32,088 nucleotides of DNA. It comes from an uncultured Planctomycetales bacterium. Its GTDB lineage: Bacteria > Planctomycetota > Planctomycetia > Isosphaerales > Isosphaeraceae. Below the pieces are notes generated by a model. The model was not told where the DNA came from, ran no database searches, and worked only from the letters and a program-made list of their open reading frames with translations. Below are positions 88 through 17,787 of the stretch, in pieces; position 1 is the stretch's first letter; every line of letters begins with the position of its first letter. Location of the stretch: the NCBI GenBank assembly GCA_903926465.1, contig CAIYJE010000032.1, forward strand, positions 1-32,088, read 5' to 3'. Both the position numbers and the translations under genes were made by a program.

Positions 88-1157
88 ACCAGCGACAAAA
101 AAAACACAACCCCAAACCCTAGCGGTGACTAAGCACTAGCGATTTCATCTTTGGAGTCAGGAACAATCAAGGCAAGATCATGGAGTTGAGTACACAGGCG
201 AGCTGTAGGGCTGCCGTTGCGTATCATTGATGCGAGTATTTCATTGAACTTGGGCCAAGCGGTTGATGCGCCCGTTGCGTGAGCTTTGAAGTTGCGCTTT
301 TAAGCCCCCGAGTTCGTAAAATCGCAGCCGACGCTCCTGAACATGGTTTAGCGATCCGTTGCACATGGCCTGGCTAAGCGGTTGAGCGGAAATACATGCC
401 CGAAGCGACAGCGAGTGGATTTCTAATGAAATGACCGGCATGTGACGAATTCAGCCGCGTTTGCCGCAGCGCCTTTCTAGGGGAACTCCAAGAGATCCAC
501 TCTGCAGCGCTTCGGGATCGTATTCGGAGAAGTGGCCCATACTCACGAGTCAGGCTCGTGTTATCGGCGTCTTATCCAGAAAAACGCCAGGAAGCGGAAC
601 TTCAAAGCGAGTCAGCGACTGGATCTCCTTAATTTTCCACCTGATTTCATTCGACAAAAGATTCTTTTATTTGCGATTCGGGCTGGTATGTGAAGGTGGA
701 CCGCTTTTGCTGGTTTGGGTAACCTTGGGAAACTGGACGCCGCGTTCCCAACGCGGCTGCTACGCCCTTCAGGGCCGCTCATGCCCGTTACTTCAATCAG
801 TTGGTCGTTTGCATTATCAGGCTTTAGATTGCACCGACTATGCTTGCGGCCGCATCAGCATGGGGATCAAGCTCTAAAGCCGCCCAGTCACGCTCGCCCC
901 CTAATGAGGTTAGAACTCATTTTACGGAAATACTAATATTCAGGTAATTGTACACATATTTGGCAGGTTGACACGCTAGTGCCAATGCGGTTCAAAAGAT
1001 GAGTTACACACACAGGAGTCTAGGCCTGCTGCCCCAATTATGAACCACGATGGGTGATTGAAAAAAATTTGAAGATCAAGCGAATTCACTTGCCGATCAA
1101 TTTTCTTCGAATACGTTAAGCCTGTACTCAGCTCGTGAGTATTGTAAGTTCCAAGGT
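88..1157. other. Gene-free stretch with repeats and hairpins
   Basis: No open frame here has recognisable protein character or a good ribosome binding site. The stretch holds a copy of the dispersed repeat (about 250-470), a strong small hairpin GCCGCGTT-CCC-AACGCGGC at 739-757, and a nested hairpin. The nested hairpin has outer arms GGCTTTAGA (820-828) and TCTAAAGCC (873-881), and inside it ATGCT (840-844) pairs with AGCAT (857-861) around the palindrome TGCGGCCGCA (845-854). A TTGACA hexamer at 968-973 could be a -35 box for the fasciclin gene, but no convincing -10 follows at the right distance. The outer end of the IS630-like element should lie somewhere after position 88; I could not place it. 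Confidence 0.5.
250..470 (+). repeat. Dispersed intergenic repeat, copy A
   Basis: The element contains the box GAGCTTTGAAGTTGCGCTTTT (281-301) without its last base in the quoted 20-mer core, then AAATCGCAGCCGACGCT, then GGTTGAGCGGAAATAC, then GCCCGAAGCG-CAGCGAGTGG and ATGACCGGC. Copy C (2792-2930, same strand) matches its first part and copy B (9670-9785, opposite strand) matches its second part. A partial extra copy of the middle section (GGCCAAGCGGTTGATGCG) sits at 253-270, just before the first box, as if two units lie in tandem. It shows no protein-coding character. Function unknown. Confidence 0.7.
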
Positions 1158-2681: not shown

Positions 2682-3479
2682 TCACGGTCTGAACCCAGGC
2701 TTGAACTCAAGCCCTGGGGGCCGGAAGGTATTGTTGAGCCGGGGAGTACGTCATCGCCCCGCCTGGTGCTTGCTAAGGTTCGCAGTTGTTTGATGCAGGC
2801 CCGTGGTGCAAGCTTTGAAGTTGCGGTTTTGGGACCCGAGCCACCAAAACCGCAGCGGACGCTTCTGATTATTGTTTCGCGATGCGGTGCTCATGGCCTG
2901 GCCAAACGGTTGAACGCAAATACGAGGCCAAAACGTTAGCAATTGGATTCCTTAGAAACGGCGGTGAAATGAAGAGGGCTCGGATGATCGATGGCGTGGC
3001 TTCTTGCCGCCATGGTTTCTCGGAGAAATCAGAACGGGCCGATCTGGAATGCGTTGACAAAACCACAACAGGCCCAAAGTCGGTAGATTTCGGCTCTTTG
3101 AACCACCTCTAGATAGCGTAGGGATTTGCGAGCTTACGCTTTAGGTGGGCACTGGGAGCGTAGAAGGTGTCAATTTATGCTGGGAGGCCGCAATGTGGGC
3201 GTATGGTGTTGCTTGTTTACGTGTGGGCCTGGCGCGCACTGCTTCCTATCGCTTGTACGATCCGGGTCTCTTGCGTTATCGGTTCCGGAGTACGTCTGGT
3301 CTCTGGAAGTGTGTATTGTGGTTGATGAATAGGCTGGTCTCAGCCAGAAGTTCATGCCAAGCGAGCATCCAGCGCTTCCGGTTGATGACGTTGAGATGCC
3401 AGTCCCTTGCCGGAGAGGTCGGGTCTCAATGTTTTGGAAAGAATAGCCCAAGAGACCAAGAGCGACAGTACCCGAGTTC
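2682..3479. other. Gene-free stretch containing a dispersed repeat
   Basis: Several short open frames cross this 798-base gap, but they overlap each other, lack ribosome binding sites and resemble no family I know. The only structured content I can see is dispersed repeat copy C (2792-2930). Nothing recognisable lies between 2940 and 3479. Confidence 0.5.
2792..2930 (+). repeat. Dispersed intergenic repeat, copy C
   Basis: It aligns with copy A from about 264 onward. Shared blocks in the same order are AGCTTTGAAGTTGCG, CCGAG, AAAxCGCAGCxGACGCT, CTGA, GCGATxCG, TGCxCATGGCCTGGC, and GGTTGAxCGxAAATAC. The match to copy A fades after 2930, where copy A continues with the GCCCGAAGCG block. Confidence 0.7.
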
Positions 3480-6981: not shown

Positions 6982-8214
6982 ATGTCTGAGCACGACGATC
7001 TCTCGATCCATCGCCGCGGATTTTTGCAGACGAGCGCCATTGCGGGAACCGCGGCGATTGCGGTTGGCACAAACCTGACCTCCAAGGCTGATGACGCTGT
7101 GGCTGAGGATCGCTCAGAGCCGGTGCCAACCCGTGTTCTGGGTCGGACCGGTGAGAAAGTGTCGATGCTCAGCTACGGCACCTTCAGGAGCGAGAGCCTG
7201 AACCGGTTGCTGCGGTTTACGTATGCCAACGGTGTTCGATATTACGATACCGCCGATGACTACGGTACGGAGCCTGGAATTGCCCAGTGGATGGAGACGG
7301 ATGCCGAAATTCGCAAATCAATTTTCCTGGTGAGCAAGGAACACCCCAGGAGCCCCAGAGAGTTACTGACCAAAATCGACCAGCGGCTGGCCACACTCAA
7401 AACCGACAGCATCGACCTGTACCTGATCCACGGCATTGGAGCTGGTTATCCAGCAGACTCGATTGAGTGGCCGAAGAGCAAGGAAATGAAGGAGACGGTT
7501 GAGGCGCTCAAGAAGTCTGGCAAGGTGAAGTTCGTGGGCTTTTCTTGCCACGATGCCCGTCGTGCAGAGTTTCTGGAGGCGGCGGCCGAGGGGAAGATTT
7601 TTGATGCTTTGATGATTCAGAATACGGCGTGGCTGGACAAGAATACGCGATTGAACAAGGCTATCGACGCCTGCCACAAGGCCGGGATTGGCCTGATTTC
7701 CATGAAGCAGATTGCCGGACCGAACCCGGCCGACTTCCTGGCCGAGGTCCCCAAGAAGGCACCAGAGCTGATCGCCAAGGGGCTGACCCCCTATGGCGCA
7801 CTGATGCACGCCATCTGGTCCGATGAGCGGTTCTCAAGTATCTGTGTATCCATGCGCAACTTTGACCAGGTGACAGAGAACACCCGTGCCGCCAAGGCGT
7901 TTGCTCCACTCAAGACGAGCGAGATTGAAAAGGTCCGTGAGGCGTTCCTGGCCTCTCGACCCAGTTTGTGTGCCGATTGTGACGGCCGATGCTCGCACGC
8001 GGCCGGTACCAAAGCCACGCTGGGGGATATCACCCGGTACCTGACTTACTATGAGCGGCACGGCCTGCGCGGGTACGCCCGACAGCAATTTGCCGAGCTT
8101 TCAGCCGAAGCTAGAGATTGGACGGGGGCGGATCTAGAAGCCGCGCGGGAAGCCTGCCCGTCCAAGCTTGATTTTGCCAGCTTGCTGTCAAGAGCCGATG
8201 AGCATCTGGCCTGA
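6982..8214 (+). CDS. Tat-exported aldo/keto reductase with C-terminal iron-sulfur-like cysteines
   Basis: The 410-residue protein has a twin-arginine signal (HRRGFLQTS, R11-R12) followed by a hydrophobic stretch, so it is probably exported folded with its cofactor. Residues 48-320 form an aldo/keto reductase TIM barrel with the complete catalytic tetrad D89, Y94 (YDTADDYG), K119 (VSKEH) and H150 (LYLIHG). The C-terminal tail has C330, C333, C337 and later C392-P, the pattern of the [4Fe-4S]-like domain that follows some bacterial reductases. Substrate and electron partner are unknown. GGAG lies just upstream of the ATG. The gene is monocistronic, with a terminator after it. Exported Tat-type members are common in planctomycetes. 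Confidence 0.9.
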   Translation: MSEHDDLSIHRRGFLQTSAIAGTAAIAVGTNLTSKADDAVAEDRSEPVPTRVLGRTGEKVSMLSYGTFRSESLNRLLRFTYANGVRYYDTADDYGTEPGIAQWMETDAEIRKSIFLVSKEHPRSPRELLTKIDQRLATLKTDSIDLYLIHGIGAGYPADSIEWPKSKEMKETVEALKKSGKVKFVGFSCHDARRAEFLEAAAEGKIFDALMIQNTAWLDKNTRLNKAIDACHKAGIGLISMKQIAGPNPADFLAEVPKKAPELIAKGLTPYGALMHAIWSDERFSSICVSMRNFDQVTENTRAAKAFAPLKTSEIEKVREAFLASRPSLCADCDGRCSHAAGTKATLGDITRYLTYYERHGLRGYARQQFAELSAEARDWTGADLEAAREACPSKLDFASLLSRADEHLA

Positions 8215-8260
8215 GCGAATTCCTAGGAAGCGGGATCGAGCCATTTTTGCTAAGAAGCCG

Positions 8261-8314
8261 TTTCAAAACCGGGACTGGCTCCGAGTCCGCGAGGTGCCTG
8301 TCCCGGTTTTGAAA
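8261..8314. repeat. 14-bp perfect inverted repeat downstream of the reductase
   Basis: TTTCAAAACCGGGA (8261-8274) is perfectly complementary to TCCCGGTTTTGAAA (8301-8314) around a 26-base loop. No T-run follows, so it is not a classical terminator; a true one lies just downstream. The arms and loop (GGGACTGGCTCC and GGTGCCTGTCCC) resemble a second element at 23214-23257 read in the opposite sense, suggesting a small dispersed palindrome family. Confidence 0.6.
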
Positions 8315-8327
8315 TTGCCTCTAAGAG

Positions 8328-8355
8328 AAACCCGGGCCAAGCGCCCGGGTTTTTT
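8328..8355 (+). terminator. Rho-independent terminator after the reductase
   Basis: AAACCCGGGC pairs with GCCCGGGTTT around a five-base loop and ends in a run of six T. The A-run on the other side means it can also act for the convergent rhomboid gene ending at 8385. Confidence 0.92.
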
Positions 8356-8384
8356 CATGGGTATTTCCCCGAGTGATCCGCGCA

Positions 8385-8993
8385 TTACACGTCAATCAAG
8401 GAACGATCGCTGACGGATCCGGAGTTGCCCAGCTTATTTCCGTTCACAAGCAGGTAGGCGACCACTCCGCCGGCAATGGCGCCGCAGATGTGACCATCCC
8501 AGGAAACGGACGAGCCGAACCGTGGCACCATGCCGAAGACCAGGGACATCCCGTACATCAACGCCACAACCACGGCGATGATCATGGGAATGATTCTGCG
8601 TTCCAGGAATCCGGAGAGCATCAGGAAGGTGGCCAGACCGAAGACCAGGCCGCTGGCTCCCACATGAACGGCGGGCCGGCCCACAAGCCAAAGCAGCAAG
8701 CCATTCAGGCCGATGATTGAGGCCACGATCTCCCAAGACTTTGCCTTGGAGCCTGCCAGAAGCGTGAGTAGCACGATCAGGGGGATGGTGTTGCTGATGA
8801 GGTGCCCCAAACTTCCGTGCAGGAAGGGCATCATGGGGATTCCGATAAGCCCGCTCAGGCTGCGCGGGACTAGCCCGAGGCCCTTGAGCCATGGAAGGAA
8901 AAAGCTGGCCAGGGATACGGCCCAGATGGCTCCCACGAACGCCAGAATTCCCTGGAATTCTTCGGTCACCGAGTCAGAAAGCGGCTTGCTCAT
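8385..8993 (-). CDS. Rhomboid-family intramembrane serine protease
   Basis: The 202-residue protein has about six hydrophobic membrane segments, the minimal rhomboid core. The catalytic dyad is visible as S114 in GASGLVFG and H168 in SWDGHICGAIAG. The loop HGSLGHLISN carries the conserved histidine and asparagine (H64, N68) that stabilise the oxyanion. Rhomboids cut transmembrane helices of client proteins within the inner membrane; the client is unknown. The ATG has a CGAGGAG Shine-Dalgarno at 8998-9004. The gene is convergent with the reductase and shares its terminator. Family assignment and activity prediction are both strong because all key residues are present. Confidence 0.93.
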   Translation of the reverse strand: MSKPLSDSVTEEFQGILAFVGAIWAVSLASFFLPWLKGLGLVPRSLSGLIGIPMMPFLHGSLGHLISNTIPLIVLLTLLAGSKAKSWEIVASIIGLNGLLLWLVGRPAVHVGASGLVFGLATFLMLSGFLERRIIPMIIAVVVALMYGMSLVFGMVPRFGSSVSWDGHICGAIAGGVVAYLLVNGNKLGNSGSVSDRSLIDV

Positions 8994-9345
8994 CGTGCTC
9001 CTCGTACAGCCTGGCCTGGAGTTGACTTTCTTGATCGCAGTTTCACTGGCTTGCCAGCCACAAACTGAATCATTCTCCAGTAGTTCGATCCATGAGCGTA
9101 CTCAGTTCGAAATGGCTCGTCGATTGGCTTGTGACCTGAGCCGTTGCCTGGTTGAGGGGTTGCTGGCCGAGCCAGGCGGGGCTTGAACCTAATGGATTGT
9201 TTCGGTGTCTGATCTGATATTCCCGGTTTTGTAACGAATTACTCGGAGGAAAGGGGTTCCTGGGCAAAAGTGCGCTGTGGCAGTGATCCCTGAGTGAGTC
9301 AGGAATTGGCCACGGCTCGATCCGCGAACCAACGGTCCAATTATC

Positions 9346-9573
9346 ATGAACAGCCGCCTGCAATTTCAAAATGTCGAGGCTGGGCCTGGGGCCCGGGTTC
9401 GGGTGCTCGCACGCAATGCGCGTAATCTTTTACTCACACCTACCAGAATCCAGGCCTGCACGCTTCAGCAAGAGATTGCCGCTATTCGCTCAGACTTGCA
9501 GGTTCGTGCGGAAACACCGCTCGTACGCTGGCTTGATCAGCTTGAACGCCAGATCCAGCCGTTCTTGCTCTGA
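9346..9573 (+). CDS. Hypothetical small protein (doubtful)
   Basis: A 75-codon frame from ATG to TGA. The predicted protein is basic, without a signal peptide or membrane segment, and its second half is helical with a Leu/Gln-rich pattern (LQQEIAAI, LDQLERQI). No family is recognised and there is no Shine-Dalgarno before the ATG. It sits directly upstream of the repeat block. It may be a real short gene or chance. Confidence 0.22.
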   Translation: MNSRLQFQNVEAGPGARVRVLARNARNLLLTPTRIQACTLQQEIAAIRSDLQVRAETPLVRWLDQLERQIQPFLL

Positions 9574-9625
9574 TATTACCGATGCTTGCGGTTCACGGTT
9601 GCGTGGCGCTCTGGTGTCCGATGCT

Positions 9626-9785
9626 GGCCCGAAGCGGCAGCGAGTGGATCTTTTTCGGTACCCCAAGCAGGTCGTCGCAGCAAACGAGGTTGAATGAGTT
9701 ACGAGCCGGTCATTCGATAAGAAATTCACTCGCTGCCGCTTCGGGCCTGTATTTCCGCTCAACCGCCTGGCCTCGCCATGTCTAA
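9626..9785 (-). repeat. Dispersed intergenic repeat, copy B, with a 21-bp inverted repeat
   Basis: Read on the minus strand, 9785 to 9670 aligns with 360-470 of copy A: ACATGGC, GGTTGAGCGGAAATACA, GCCCGAAGCGxCAGCGAGTG, ATTTCT, GAATGACCGGC and CGTTTGC occur in the same order. The GGCCCGAAGCGGCAGCGAGTG block also occurs on the plus strand at 9626-9646 and is exactly complementary to 9727-9747, giving a 21-bp perfect inverted repeat with an 80-base spacer. Confidence 0.7.
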
Positions 9786-10001
9786 CGCACCTGGGAACCA
9801 CTGCACGCTGCAATTTTCTGGTTCGAGGCCAATGCAGCCGCTCAAGATCTATTGGCGAAGCTCGGCAATGTTTCTTTTCTAAGTCGCGTATTTTACCTGG
9901 TTTGCCTTGCGGTTAGATTTGTAGGGTCGCGAACCTCGACTCTTGCAGAGAGCTTCAGGTTCGCAATTCCAGTGCGGACTGCCGTTGGGGAGCACCTTCT
10001 G

Positions 10002-12725
10002 ATGCGTGGCTTGAACGGGCTATCGTGGGTTTGGCGAGTGGGACTCGCCTTCTTAATATCTGGCGTATGCCTGGCACCGTTGTATGCCCAGGAGGAGCCC
10101 AAGAAGGAAGAACCTAAGAAAGAAGAGCCCAAGAAGGAAGAACCTAAGAAGGAAGAGCCTAAGAAGGAAGAACCTAAGAAGGAAGAACCTAAGAAGGAAG
10201 AACCTAAGAAGGAAGAACCTAAGAAGGAAGAGCCCAAGAAGGAAGAACCTAAGAAGGAAGAACCTAAGAAGGAAGAGCCCAAGAAGGAAGAACCTAAGAA
10301 GGAAGAAACGCCAATCGCAGCTCCTGGGGCTGGATCTGGAGCGGGGCCAACCAAGGGTTCGGACAAGATCAAGCCTTTTGACAAGGTGATCACCAAGGAA
10401 GCGGTGACCTCGGCCGGCCTGTTCTATGTGCACAGGCTTGAAGACAAGATTTTTTATGAAATTCCGACCTCAGAGCTGGGCAAAGAAATGCTCTGGGTGA
10501 CGCAGGTTGAGAAGACCGGCACGGGCTATGGGTATGGCGGTAGCCCGGTGGGTGATCGCGTAGTGCGCTGGGAGCAGAGAGATGATCAGATTTTGCTGCG
10601 TGATGTGAAGTACCAGATTCGAGCCGATATCGACGATCCAATTCGCGATGCGGTGGCGGCGAGTTCGGTTGAGCCCATCATTGCCGTGTTCCAGGTGATG
10701 GCCTACGGCAAAGACAAGGCACCCGTGGTAGAGGTGACGAGCCTATTCAAGACTGATGTGCCAGAGTTCAGCGCCAAGCGTGCGGTTCGTGGCTCGGGGA
10801 TTGATTCCAGCCGGACGTTCATTGAGAAGGTCAAGGCGTTCCCAACCAACATCGAGACCAAGGTTCTGGCCACGTTCCGGCCTGGCGGCGGTGGCGGTGG
10901 TCCGCTTGGGCCAATTGGCCCACGAGGTGGCGGCGATTCGGACGGTGCGGGGATCACGGCGGTGGTTCACCACAGCATGATCAAACTGCCCGATGAGCCC
11001 ATGCGCCCCAGGCGAGAGGATGACCGTATTGGGTTCTTTAGCGTGAACTTCCAGAACTTTGGTAATCTTGCCAAGCAGGAAGTTGAAGAGATATCTTATA
11101 TCACGCGCTGGCGGCTAGAGAAGAAAGATCCCAAGGCCGAGGTCTCAGAGCCCAAGAAGCCGATCGTTTACTACATTGGGCGAGAGGTGCCGGCCAAGTG
11201 GCGTCCTTTCATCAAGAAGGGGGTTGAGGCCTGGCAGCCTGCGTTTGAAAAGGCGGGATTCAAGAACGCAATCATCGCCAAAGATGCCCCCAGCCCTCGC
11301 GAAGATCCAGACTGGGATGCCGAAGATGCTCGGTATTCCACCATTCGCTGGCTGCCCTCGACGATTGAGAATGCCATGGGGCCGCATGTGCACGATCCCC
11401 GAACAGGCGAGATTCTGGAATCAGATATCTTGATGTTCCATAACGTTCTGAAACTGGCGCGAGACTGGTACTTCGTGCAGGCTTCGCCCAACGATCCCAG
11501 GGCGCAAACCCTGCCGTTGCCCGATGACCTGCTGGGCGACTTGCTTGCGTATGTGGTGAGCCATGAAGTTGGACATACGCTGGGCTTCCCCCACAATATG
11601 AAGGCGAGTTCTTCATATGCGGTGGATCAGCTTCGCAATAAGGAGTTCACAGAGAAGAACGGCGTGGAAGCCTCGATCATGGACTACGGCCGTTTCAACT
11701 ACGTGGCCCAGCCGGGTGACAACGCCCGGTTGATTCCGATTATTGGCCCTTACGACGAATTCGCGCTGGAGTGGGGTTACCGAGAATTCCCAGAGGCCAA
11801 GACGTACGAGCAAGAAAAAGCGGAGCTCGACAAGATCACCGCACGGCAGAAAGATAATCCCGTTCTGCGGTTTGGTGATCCCAATCCGGCGGAAGATCCC
11901 TCGCAGCAAACCGAGGACCTGGGGTCAGACGCCGTGGCGGCCACCGAGCTGGGCTTGAAGAACATTGACCGGGTTGCGGAATTCCTGGTCAAAGCCACCT
12001 GCAAGCCTGGCGAGAATTATGACCTGCTCCGAACCGAGTACACCCAGTTGCTGGGTCAGCGTGCCCGTGAGCTTGGCCACGTCTCCAACATGGTTGGCGG
12101 CGTGATCCGGAACAATCAATGGTTCCCGGATGGCACCAAGACCTACGACGCCGTACCCGCCGACCGGCAGAAGGCGGCCGTCGCCTTCCTGAACCAGCAC
12201 GCGTTCCAGGTTCCACCTGTGCTCGTGAATCCCGACATCTTGCAGCGTCTGGAGCCAACCGGGGCAGCCGACCGGATCCTCGGAAATCAGCGAGGCGTGC
12301 TAGGAACCCTTCTCAATGGCCGGCGGGTCAAGCGAATTGCCGAGCTTGCCCTGCGCGACCCTGAAAAGGCCTACAAGCCAGCCGATCTGATCAACGACCT
12401 GCACGAAGGAATTTGGTCCGAACTCAAGAAGAATCCGGTTGATATTGATCTTTATCGCCGTAATCTTCAGCGGGCCTACTTGGAGCAGCTTGCCGGCCCC
12501 GTGGAAAACCCAGAGACAGATAGTGATATGACGGCCCTGGCCCGCACCGAATTGATCCGCATCATTGCTGAGATCAAGGACGTGCTGGCCAAGGGAGATG
12601 CCAATCCTGTCACTTCAGCCGCCAAAACGCACTTGCTGGATATCCGGATGCGAGCCGAGAAGGCGCTCGATCCCACCGGCAAGTCACGCGCGCCTGGCGG
12701 TACTTTGATCTTCATGGGCGAGTAA
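10002..12725 (+). CDS. Secreted zinc-dependent metalloprotease (DUF5117/DUF4953-like) with PKKEE repeats
   Basis: The 907-residue product has a signal peptide (1-30, ending LYAQ) and a low-complexity tract of 14 PKKEE repeats (residues 33-102). A large catalytic part of the bacterial zinc-dependent metalloprotease family with DUF5117/DUF5118/DUF4953 architecture follows. The metzincin-type zinc motif HEVGHTLGFPH begins at H521, with E522 as general base and a third histidine ligand at the end. Downstream sequence (SIMDYGRFNYVAQPGD) supplies the expected Met-turn region. It should act outside the cytoplasm or at the outer membrane. ATG at 10002 is preferred over an in-frame TTG at 9852 because GGGGAG (9987-9992) lies nine bases before it and the signal peptide starts there. 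Natural substrate unknown. Confidence 0.9.
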   Translation: MRGLNGLSWVWRVGLAFLISGVCLAPLYAQEEPKKEEPKKEEPKKEEPKKEEPKKEEPKKEEPKKEEPKKEEPKKEEPKKEEPKKEEPKKEEPKKEEPKKEETPIAAPGAGSGAGPTKGSDKIKPFDKVITKEAVTSAGLFYVHRLEDKIFYEIPTSELGKEMLWVTQVEKTGTGYGYGGSPVGDRVVRWEQRDDQILLRDVKYQIRADIDDPIRDAVAASSVEPIIAVFQVMAYGKDKAPVVEVTSLFKTDVPEFSAKRAVRGSGIDSSRTFIEKVKAFPTNIETKVLATFRPGGGGGGPLGPIGPRGGGDSDGAGITAVVHHSMIKLPDEPMRPRREDDRIGFFSVNFQNFGNLAKQEVEEISYITRWRLEKKDPKAEVSEPKKPIVYYIGREVPAKWRPFIKKGVEAWQPAFEKAGFKNAIIAKDAPSPREDPDWDAEDARYSTIRWLPSTIENAMGPHVHDPRTGEILESDILMFHNVLKLARDWYFVQASPNDPRAQTLPLPDDLLGDLLAYVVSHEVGHTLGFPHNMKASSSYAVDQLRNKEFTEKNGVEASIMDYGRFNYVAQPGDNARLIPIIGPYDEFALEWGYREFPEAKTYEQEKAELDKITARQKDNPVLRFGDPNPAEDPSQQTEDLGSDAVAATELGLKNIDRVAEFLVKATCKPGENYDLLRTEYTQLLGQRARELGHVSNMVGGVIRNNQWFPDGTKTYDAVPADRQKAAVAFLNQHAFQVPPVLVNPDILQRLEPTGAADRILGNQRGVLGTLLNGRRVKRIAELALRDPEKAYKPADLINDLHEGIWSELKKNPVDIDLYRRNLQRAYLEQLAGPVENPETDSDMTALARTELIRIIAEIKDVLAKGDANPVTSAAKTHLLDIRMRAEKALDPTGKSRAPGGTLIFMGE
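10098..10307 (+). repeat. Coding tandem repeat, 14 units of 15 bp (PKKEE)
   Basis: Fourteen in-frame copies of a 15-base unit close to CCTAAGAAGGAAGAA encode (PKKEE)14. Units differ at silent positions (CCC or CCT, GAA or GAG), and some two-unit blocks are identical, which points to expansion by slippage or unequal exchange. Because each unit is 15 bases, gain or loss keeps the frame. The tract sits right after the signal peptide and would form a charged, extended linker. Confidence 0.95.
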
Positions 12726-16949: not shown

Positions 16950-16997
16950 CATGGGCTGCTGATTTCCGACCCTGGCACAAACTACCAGCCGAACCGG

Positions 16998-17018
16998 GAG
17001 CTTTGAAGTTGCGCTTTT
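16998..17018 (+). repeat. Dispersed repeat, isolated 21-bp box
   Basis: The 21 bases here are identical to the opening box of copy A at 281-301 (core CTTTGAAGTTGCGCTTTT). The match to the rest of the element is not clear downstream, so this is a partial copy. Confidence 0.55.
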
Positions 17019-17159
17019 CTGGGGCTACTCACGCACTACCCCTGAAAAAGAGATATTCACATACCAATTGAGCCAAATTCAGAATCATCGAGATCCGACA
17101 GTTTCCGTCCTGTAACGACGGTACTGTCAGCCTAGAACTGCGGACTCCTGATAAAGTCG

Positions 17160-17289
17160 CACGGCTCTTGCGAGCCGTGAATTGCATTATGGAGGCCTAT
17201 GCTTGAGGGAGTAAGAACTCGACTCGGAGAGTCGAGCGACTTTGCCAGAACCGTCCCTACAGAGCGTGTGGAACCGGGCCTTCAGCCCG
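17160..17289 (+). other. Three consecutive hairpins, possible structured RNA
   Basis: CACGGCTC-TTGC-GAGCCGTG (17160-17179), CTCGACTC-GGA-GAGTCGAG (17218-17236) and CGGGC-CTTCA-GCCCG (17275-17289) follow each other within 130 bases. Each stem is perfect. The last is followed by AAAAA, so it is not a plus-strand terminator. The cluster may be a structured RNA or a set of small palindromic repeats. I do not recognise any known RNA family. Confidence 0.35.
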
Positions 17290-17336
17290 AAAAACAGCCA
17301 AGTGTCGATTGTTTAAGTGAATTCTTCAACGGTTAA
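17199..17336 (+). CDS. Possible 45-residue small protein (doubtful)
   Basis: An ATG frame of 45 codons begins three bases after GGAGG (17191-17195), slightly too close for an ideal start. The polar peptide (MLEGVRTRLGESS...) has no membrane segment or known motif, and most of it runs through the hairpin cluster. That overlap makes a chance frame more likely than a gene. Confidence 0.15.
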   Translation: MLEGVRTRLGESSDFARTVPTERVEPGLQPEKQPSVDCLSEFFNG

Positions 17337-17420
17337 TGTTTTCATAAAAGCTCACTTGCTTACGTGTAGGACTGTTGAGGAGGGAGTCCACCTCTGTTGC
17401 TGAGACGGTTTCTGGCTCCC

Positions 17421-17520
17421 AAGAAGTGCAACTTCAAAGCTCACGCGTCAGGCTATCAGAAGTACCGCGTCCATTGCGATTTGCGGGCTCTGAACAAAAA
17501 GCGCAACTTCAAAGACCGGG
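17421..17520 (-). repeat. Dispersed intergenic repeat, copies in reverse orientation
   Basis: On the minus strand, TTTGAAGTTGCGCTTTTT is followed by GAGCCC, AAATCGCA, GGACGC and TTCTGAT, the same block order as copy C at 2811-2870. A second box, TGAGCTTTGAAGTTGCA, follows about 75 bases on, so two units lie in tandem. Confidence 0.6.
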
Positions 17521-17708
17521 AGCTAGCCCTGGTTTTTCAAGCGGTTTATCGCACAGCCCATCAGGAATCGCCCCGGAACGGAATCTGGGCGGTTACCACT
17601 CCGTGCTGTCCGTCTGGGAGTTTGAGGCGTACCAGGATCGCGATTTTATAGCGGTTAACATTTGCGTTGCACACAGAGTGAGCGCCTTTCCTGGTGTTCC
17701 TTTTCCGA

Positions 17709-17787
17709 ATGTAGGACAGCCGCCCTCGGCTGTCTCTGAATTCCTGGGACCTTACGAAGATGACAGCCGAGGGCGGCTGTCCTACAT
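17709..17787. repeat. 26-bp perfect inverted repeat (REP-like palindrome)
   Basis: The arm 17709-17734 (contains GTAGGACAGCCGCCCTCGGC) is perfectly complementary to 17762-17787 around a 27-base loop. Each arm also contains its own near-palindrome, GACAGCCG/CGGCTGTC. No T-run follows, so it is not a standard terminator. It stands alone between repeats and the 3' end of a convergent gene, the usual place for REP-type elements. Confidence 0.8.

Follow-up and report, generated by a model that had tools for sequence, protein, structure and literature searches.

The window analysed here, a stretch of 32,088 nucleotides, is one whole contig of a 6.89 Mb planctomycete genome assembly of 207 contigs (hereafter the source genome), and a family of repeats built from recurring blocks lies mostly between its genes. 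A preliminary description had placed three larger copies (A, B and C) and some small pieces there, and the blocks common to all of them were recovered at or very near the coordinates that it gave. In an ungapped repeat search, positions 307-424 paired with 2835-2952 at 75%, and 344-516 paired with 9628-9800 in inverted orientation at 76%. Within the window, blastn joined A with B (E=4e-33) and A with C (E=1e-29), and it recovered the short block at 16995-17018 and at 17424-17453 with E=6e-4. An alignment of whole copies, which had been proposed, proved unreadable because the blocks are permuted. Two other repetitive features were seen in the window. Positions 10060-10344 hold a tandem repeat with a period of 15 bp (13 overlapping 105-nt copies), corresponding to a 5-residue peptide repeat near the start of a DUF4953/DUF5117 metalloprotease-like gene (9852-12725), and a long hairpin at 8245-8330 (38-nt arms, 79% complementary, 10-nt loop), just past an ORF ending at 8214, may be a terminator or another repeat.

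When copy A was searched against the whole source genome, at least 81 matching places were obtained at E<=1 (40 of the 98 first-look candidates were scored). The block CTTTGAAGTTGCG, with at most one mismatch, matched 90 times (43 exact), against 19 matches for the backwards pattern. The family is thus genome-wide and not limited to a few copies, while the initial estimate of hundreds finds no support in these numbers; they indicate some tens of elements, to which very decayed pieces could add.

Nine blocks were mapped over 59 stretches of the source genome (the window, L036-L075 and 18 others), and an ordered but nested grammar was obtained. The CTTTGAAGTTGCG block opens units and, reversed, closes them. 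Interior blocks share a head, GCCCGAMGCGNNAGC, at their start; either GAGTGGATTTCT or GAGGGATTC comes next, and the blocks often form inverted pairs. To the left of the CTTTGAAG block stands mostly cccgaCGCGTGAG or ccctcgCTCACGCG, which are one head in two orientations. On contig C142, an element running from CTTTGAAG to CTTCAAAG has CTCACACG on either side, and the sequence with the element removed matches unbroken heads elsewhere. Given this duplication and the unbroken heads, CTTTGAAGTTGCGC was identified as a terminal inverted repeat (TIR) whose element duplicates 8 bp of its target, the target being the head. Two mobile families, each nested within the other, make up the patchwork. One is bounded by the 14-bp TIR YTTTGAAGTTGCGC, of which CTTTGAAGTTGCG is a part, and this TIR is common to an IS and to short non-autonomous derivatives (MITEs). 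The other is a REP palindrome, GCCCGAAGCG-NN-AGCGAG, which is widespread in Planctomycetia and is the target of the IS. Among the blocks originally listed, GCCCGAAGCG-CAGCGAGTG is the REP head, while AAATCGCAGC-GACGCT and GGTTGAGCGGAAATAC are interior blocks. The first proposal, a MITE-like, REP-like or degenerate mobile element, fits in each of its three versions, for different blocks of the one patchwork.

Within the window, element A is a TIR-bounded MITE of 324 nt (284-607, forward strand), with its left TIR, CTTTGAAGTTGCGC, at 284-297 and a degenerate right end, GCGGAACTTCAAAG, ending at 607. Copy A had been placed at 250-470; it is present there, but it continues to 607, where the opposite end lies. 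Its left flank and presumed target duplication, TGCGTGAG (276-283, forward strand), forms the last 8 nt of the REP head gcgcccgtTGCGTGAG and agrees with the other flank, CGAGTCAG, at 5 of 8 positions; by eye, the joined flanks make a degenerate REP head. Nested in element A is a REP-type hairpin (398-516, forward strand), composed of GCCCGAAGCG-AC-AGCGAGTGGATTTCT and further sequence together with an imperfect reverse complement; it gives a self-inverted blastn match, and the DNA fold of 395-525 has z=-2.87. Copy C (2800-2955, forward strand) is the left half of a MITE, with a REP-like flank at 2800-2812, a TIR (CTTTGAAGTTGCGG) at 2813-2826 and inner blocks; a search for its right end found none. 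Copy B (9621-9800, reverse strand) is a MITE interior without TIR, consisting of a REP hairpin and inner blocks. The 34-nt arms of this hairpin (9621-9654 and 9719-9752) are 85% complementary, and the DNA fold of 9621-9752 has z=-7.02, a stability reached by 0 of 200 shuffles. The copies, A with its degenerate right end, C as a left half and B as an interior, do carry different halves of the same consensus, as had been stated.

Element D+E (17001-17514, forward strand, 514 nt) is bounded by the TIRs CTTTGAAGTTGCGC and GCGCAACTTCAAAG and lies between two perfectly matching copies of the 8-bp target duplication ACCGGGAG, at 16993-17000 and 17515-17522 (both forward strand). The pieces reported separately at 16998-17018 and 17421-17520 are the two ends of this one element, and the five occurrences first counted are four loci. 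A further end lies inside it, at 17439, and suggests that a second MITE was nested here and has recombined. About 190 nt from this element, at 17709-17787, there is a perfect inverted repeat with 26-nt arms set 27 nt apart, beginning ATGTAGGACAGCCGCCCTCGGCTGTC, which resembles a REP pair of the GTAG type, from another family.

For an assessment of target duplications, TIR ends were found exhaustively and paired by a stack rule, which joins 17001 to the inner end at 17439 instead of 17514. Under this pairing, which also admits ends that arose by chance (for example window 8307-9371), 8 of 36 pairs in the source genome were flanked by an 8-bp duplication with no more than one mismatch; shuffling gave a mean of 2.27, and 7 of 20000 shuffles did as well. 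In G014 the same held for 12 of 16 pairs and in other genomes of the class for 12 of 22, values that 0 of 20000 shuffles reached in either case. For the remaining source-genome pairs, recombination, decay or a wrong join by the script accounts for the lack of a kept duplication. The insertion register was cccga MGCGNNAG/cgag, the duplicated 8 nt being MGCGNNAG. In the source genome, 60 of 72 TIR ends adjoined the REP head in this one register, against 0.9% at random (13 nt before the TIR, head in either orientation, at most 3 mismatches). The REP pattern used was drawn from source-genome flanks, so the other genomes alone make the independent test; there 43 of 50 TIR ends adjoined a REP head (random 1.2%), in loci hand-picked from 16 genomes and not random, the two ends of one element not being independent. 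The corresponding value for G014 was 1 of 39 (random 1.3%).

Empty sites gave a further view of the same insertions. Flanks of 40+32 nt, joined with one duplication removed and compared with the fetched loci, matched continuous sequence elsewhere for 9 of 13 source-genome elements, and those of L040 were 100% identical over 68 nt to an uninterrupted paralogue. No empty-site paralogue was found among the fetched loci for the other 4 of 13, which include both window elements; element A had none among the loci compared. As to genes, 6 of 62 TIR ends lay within ORFs of at least 200 aa (one place being counted twice, as L018 and L061) in 57 source-genome stretches, although such ORFs make up 51% of the sequence there, which indicates that the elements mostly avoid genes. 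They had been said to lie always between genes: placement is mostly intergenic, but the "always" does not stand.

Among the source-genome pairs, 26 of 36 span 149-543 nt and are too short for a 450-aa gene. ORFs in longer pairs were read in L040, L042 and L048 only, and L040, on contig C158, contains a foreign IS4. The transposase of this transposon is of the IS4 family (NF033592, 171.6 bits; cut-off 115) and sits between two TIR ends, and the repeats might accordingly be seen as its decayed copies and the transposon as their mobiliser. Read by eye, however, it has ends of its own (CAATAGTGTTCGGC and GCCGAACACTATTG) and a 10-bp duplication of its own (GGGAAGTCCC), inside a long-type MITE, which makes it a passenger; we rejected it as mobiliser and regard this explanation as having almost no chance of being right. 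The ORF of this IS4 may be frameshifted.

Full-length ISs of 1495-1540 bp, with one DDE transposase and the same TIR, were found in seven other genomes (L164, L208-L216); the copy in G281 (Gemmataceae bacterium palsa_1347), for instance, has 1,540 bp, both ends and one ORF. Exact 8-bp duplications were present in 5 of 9 testable full-length copies (L209, L210, L212, L213 and L214), a count from an end list that skips weaker ends and is therefore incomplete. Of the other copies among the ten full-length ones read, L211 has a 6/8 duplication, L164 starts at a contig end, and L208, L215 and L216 (G241) have mirror-image flanks; a further copy, L217, showed one end only. Most of the full-length ISs sit in the same target as the MITEs. 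L212 is inserted at cccga/CGCGCCAG/cgaggg and L214 at cccga/CGCGCAAG/cgaggg, exactly the REP head of the source genome; the insertion sites of L210 and L213 are not in a REP head.

All five transposases examined with profile models exceeded the PF01609 cut-off of 23, the one from G281 with 34.8 bits and four further ones with 57.8-72.6 bits, and two of the latter also passed PF13546. All five remained below every NCBIfam cut-off. The IS701 model (cut-off 150) was the nearest for the G281 protein (73.4 bits) and gave 80.5-103.8 bits for the four others, which scored 57.3-79.7 bits with the IS4 model (cut-off 115). An alignment of seven transposases keeps D, D and YxLRWQIELFFKELK in 6 of 7, with C for R in L164, and we take the pattern Y-x2-R-x3-E-x6-K in it to be the YREK motif of the IS4 type. 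The group is IS4/IS701-like and apparently unnamed. The preliminary description had considered that the copies could be decayed pieces of one known IS: the TIR-bounded parts do derive from one IS group, but its transposases fall below the cut-offs of the named families, and the REP portion forms another family.

Scoring of up to 4 first-look candidates in each of 397 class genomes gave matches to the transposase at E<=1e-10 in 14 genomes. Most TIR-rich genomes yielded no match in that search, so the link between MITEs and IS rests on the TIR, the duplication length and the target. In G014 and G065, contig breaks cut off the ends of the IS copies. Intermediate forms were seen in G141, where five copies measure 924-966 bp and three of them have exact 8-bp duplications (again from an incomplete end list). 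In one of the five, L168, only residues 7-66 and 314-451 of the transposase are matched; it is an IS from which the central part of the gene is gone, as expected on the way to a MITE. L160 (G035) matches the C-terminal peptide at 50%, and a search for a clear TIR there found none. In the wider contig collection, the transposase search gave one named locus, a Gemmataceae MAG, and the plasmid collection gave one record, with 25% identity and annotated as IS701 family. At three IS left ends from three genomes (L086, L157 and L207), a ribosome-binding stretch, GGAAGGAGCC, and a complementary GGCTCC about 65-90 nt upstream were noticed by eye; their pairing could possibly form a hairpin and so keep read-through transcripts from being translated.

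A transposase sharing the repeats' ends had been suggested as a thing to look for, and while the seven genomes provide it in full length, the source genome yielded only a broken copy. Its contig C10 matches transposase residues 1-71 at 45% identity and residues 350-456 at 38%, with a right TIR within 20 nt after the latter and a decayed left end behind a REP head. The middle stretch of C10 is unrelated and reads, by eye, like part of an IS3-type transposase. The right end of this IS and many MITE ends have CTTTGAAGTTGCGCTTTT in common, and IS and MITE are alike over about the first 20 nt only. No intact transposase copy was found in the source genome; unless the assembly lacks one that exists, the family has therefore probably ceased to move there.

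The exact TIR YTTTGAAGTTGCGC occurs 32 times in the source genome, with 0 for the reversed control. Among the 45 genomes of its family, the source genome (32) and G014 (40) stand beside others with 0 or 1. Within 397 genomes of the class searched, which we infer from the name of G281 to be Planctomycetia, YTTTGAAGTTGCGC has at least one match in 126, many of them single and possibly due to chance, and at least 5 matches in 44 by our own count from the listing; the richest are G285 (125), G140 (118), G210 (64) and G071 (50), and the reversed control gave at most 2 in any genome. Outside the class, none of 187 genomes of the phylum (a sample of 199 without the source genome and 11 of the same class) had more than 2 matches. 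An exact 23-mer scan of the wider contig collection gave no match.

Repeats of this kind could also be selected regulatory or RNA elements (a terminator, an attenuator or a nucleoid-protein site) dispersed because they are useful, and the strong hairpins (z=-7.0 in copy B, -2.9 in A) as well as the mostly intergenic placement would agree with this. The hairpins, however, stem from the REP, and an Rfam scan of the window gave no family at the gathering threshold. TIR ends, duplications, truncated copies and patchiness (2 of 45 family genomes rich) look like selfish spread. We hold a regulatory origin to be very improbable, although the host may have come to use the repeats later.

The REP palindrome was followed separately. 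Its sequence AGCCCGAMGCGNNAGCGAG was present in 38 of 148 class genomes, with up to 387 exact copies (G051) against 0 or 1 for the reversed control, and in several genomes its copies stood as inverted pairs with a distance of 30-60 nt. The source genome has 23 copies, and G028 has 286 copies with zero exact TIR. A REP head with at most one mismatch stood on both sides of Y1_Tnp genes in 3 of 27 loci from REP-rich genomes; these RAYT-type genes (L225 and L240 in G113, L244 in G152) have exact or 1-mismatch heads. Given this abundance, the inverted pairs, the flanking of RAYT genes and the absence of the exact TIR in G028, the REP is a family in its own right, and we infer that it was probably spread by RAYTs.

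It is then conceivable that a single REP/BIME/REPIN system accounts for the entire modular block, that a RAYT (HUH tyrosine transposase) moved it, and that CTTTGAAGTTGCG is another REP arm. The inverted REP pairs, the flanked Y1_Tnp genes in G113 and G152 and the 5 Y1_Tnp matches above the Pfam cut-off in the source genome are in line with such a system. Against it stand the YTTTGAWGTTGCGC ends, which are flanked by direct duplications of 8 bp and in seven genomes enclose the gene of a DDE transposase; duplications of that kind are not known from HUH-mediated REP mobility. Moreover, none of the five source-genome Y1_Tnp loci has a REP head alongside at the mismatches allowed, and two of them have a 2-mismatch match to the TIR block that is probably due to chance; these genes were rejected as the mobiliser. 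We consider a single RAYT-driven system improbable, though for the REP head alone it may well hold.

The relative G014, which belongs to another genus, has the same kind of element at another target. Ends of the form TTTTGAAGTTGCGC bound elements of 150-285 bp there, with perfect 8-bp duplications in 6 of 15, for example TTGGGAAG, TTCCCAAG and CTGGGAAG (this end list, too, is incomplete). The target of these MITEs (L088-L100) is mostly a different palindromic repeat, CCCCCTTGGGAAGGGGG, which seems to recur between the genes of G014 in its own right. Given such cases, it was considered whether the transposase recognises a hairpin (cruciform) extruded from the target and not linear sequence, sometimes inserting across the stem. 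This would explain why the targets differ in sequence and yet are mostly palindromes (REP heads, CCCCCTTGGGAAGGGGG in G014 and TTCGTTCCCAAGCCGGAGCTTGGGAACGA in L210), and also the mirror flanks without direct duplication at L208, L215, L216, L167 and L173. Mirror-image flanks were seen around IS or MITE copies at L208, L215 and L216 (G241), L167, L173, L039 and L048, and at L215 24 nt are mirrored perfectly around the IS. Of 22 class pairs, however, 5 have them, where random pairing of REP-inserted ends gives 16.7%, and with stack pairing 2 of 22 do, a value reached by 15456 of 20000 shuffles. This is scarcely above random, so recombination between copies suffices for most of them. The site of L213, which has no evident palindrome, also counts against a hairpin target, and we think such target reading unlikely.

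Taken together, we are confident, short of certainty, that the modular repeats are MITEs of an IS4/IS701-like IS inserted into REP palindromes. In this mechanism, the transposase would bind the TIRs and join the element to the REP across an 8-bp stagger, and the short derivatives would be moved in trans by an intact IS. The REPs would be spread by RAYT (HUH tyrosine) transposases and would also have come to sit inside MITEs. Homologous recombination between TIRs and REP arms may then have truncated copies, which would account for the different halves of one consensus.

An unexplained intergenic patchwork of planctomycetes is thereby resolved into two mobile families acting in order, in which REPs spread and the IS and its MITEs land on them. 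REP landing pads would keep the element out of genes. Both families are present in many genomes of the class, so that occupied, empty and hybrid sites abound; REP turnover, the birth of MITEs by internal deletion and the targeting of safe sites thus become datable and testable. For insertions that do no damage, a possible further tool is a DDE transposase whose target is a palindromic REP and whose stagger is 8 bp.

Compared with known systems, the IS resembles IS701 and IS4 in its DDE_Tnp_1 domain, its YREK motif, its single ORF and its length of about 1.5 kb. It differs from them in its profile scores, the best being 103.8 of 150 and 79.7 of 115, with none of five transposases at an NCBIfam cut-off. 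IS701 usually duplicates 4 bp, against 8 bp here. The short elements are like MITEs and TIMEs in being TIR-bounded, mosaic, too short for a transposase and presumably moved in trans. TIMEs are reportedly derived from Tn3, whereas the transposase here belongs to another clan and the target is a second repeat family.

The REP part is similar to REP/REPIN/BIME systems with RAYTs in its many copies of AGCCCGAMGCGNNAGCGAG, often in close inverted pairs, and in its flanking of RAYT-type genes in two genomes; it differs in that no GTAG tag was noticed at the head in an unsystematic look and no RAYT with this REP was found in the source genome. REPs and many RAYT genes have been reported in R. baltica (PMC3733652). 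The main text of that paper contains neither GCCCGA nor AGCGAG; its consensus sequences are given in figures, so this REP may already be listed there.

The closest parallel is offered by ISs that use REPs as landing sites, of which ISRm22 (IS4 family, Sinorhizobium meliloti), ISPsy8, ISPpu9/10, ISPa11 and ISRm19 are described by Tobes and Pareja (2006, PMC1525189). ISRm22 makes 6-bp duplications at the palindrome axis, and the imperfect duplications of some IS copies were ascribed there to recombination (PMC1525189). Our elements are like these ISs, above all ISRm22, which also has an IS4-type DDE transposase, in inserting in one register of the REP and in having direct duplications, some of them imperfect. 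The duplication, however, is 8 bp, against 6 bp in ISRm22 and 2-3 bp or none in ISPpu9/10, ISPsy8 and ISPa11 (PMC1525189). Further differences from the known REP-targeting ISs are another phylum and another REP, the many MITE copies, the mutual nesting of REP and MITE, and the occurrence in many genera of one class. Searches of an open-access library gave no paper on these Planctomycetia elements, whether IS or MITE, and a name may exist in ISfinder or in subscription journals. As kinds, REP-targeting ISs and MITEs are known already; what is new is an IS4/IS701-like group that has multiplied, together with its MITEs, in many Planctomycetia and uses a widespread REP as its target.
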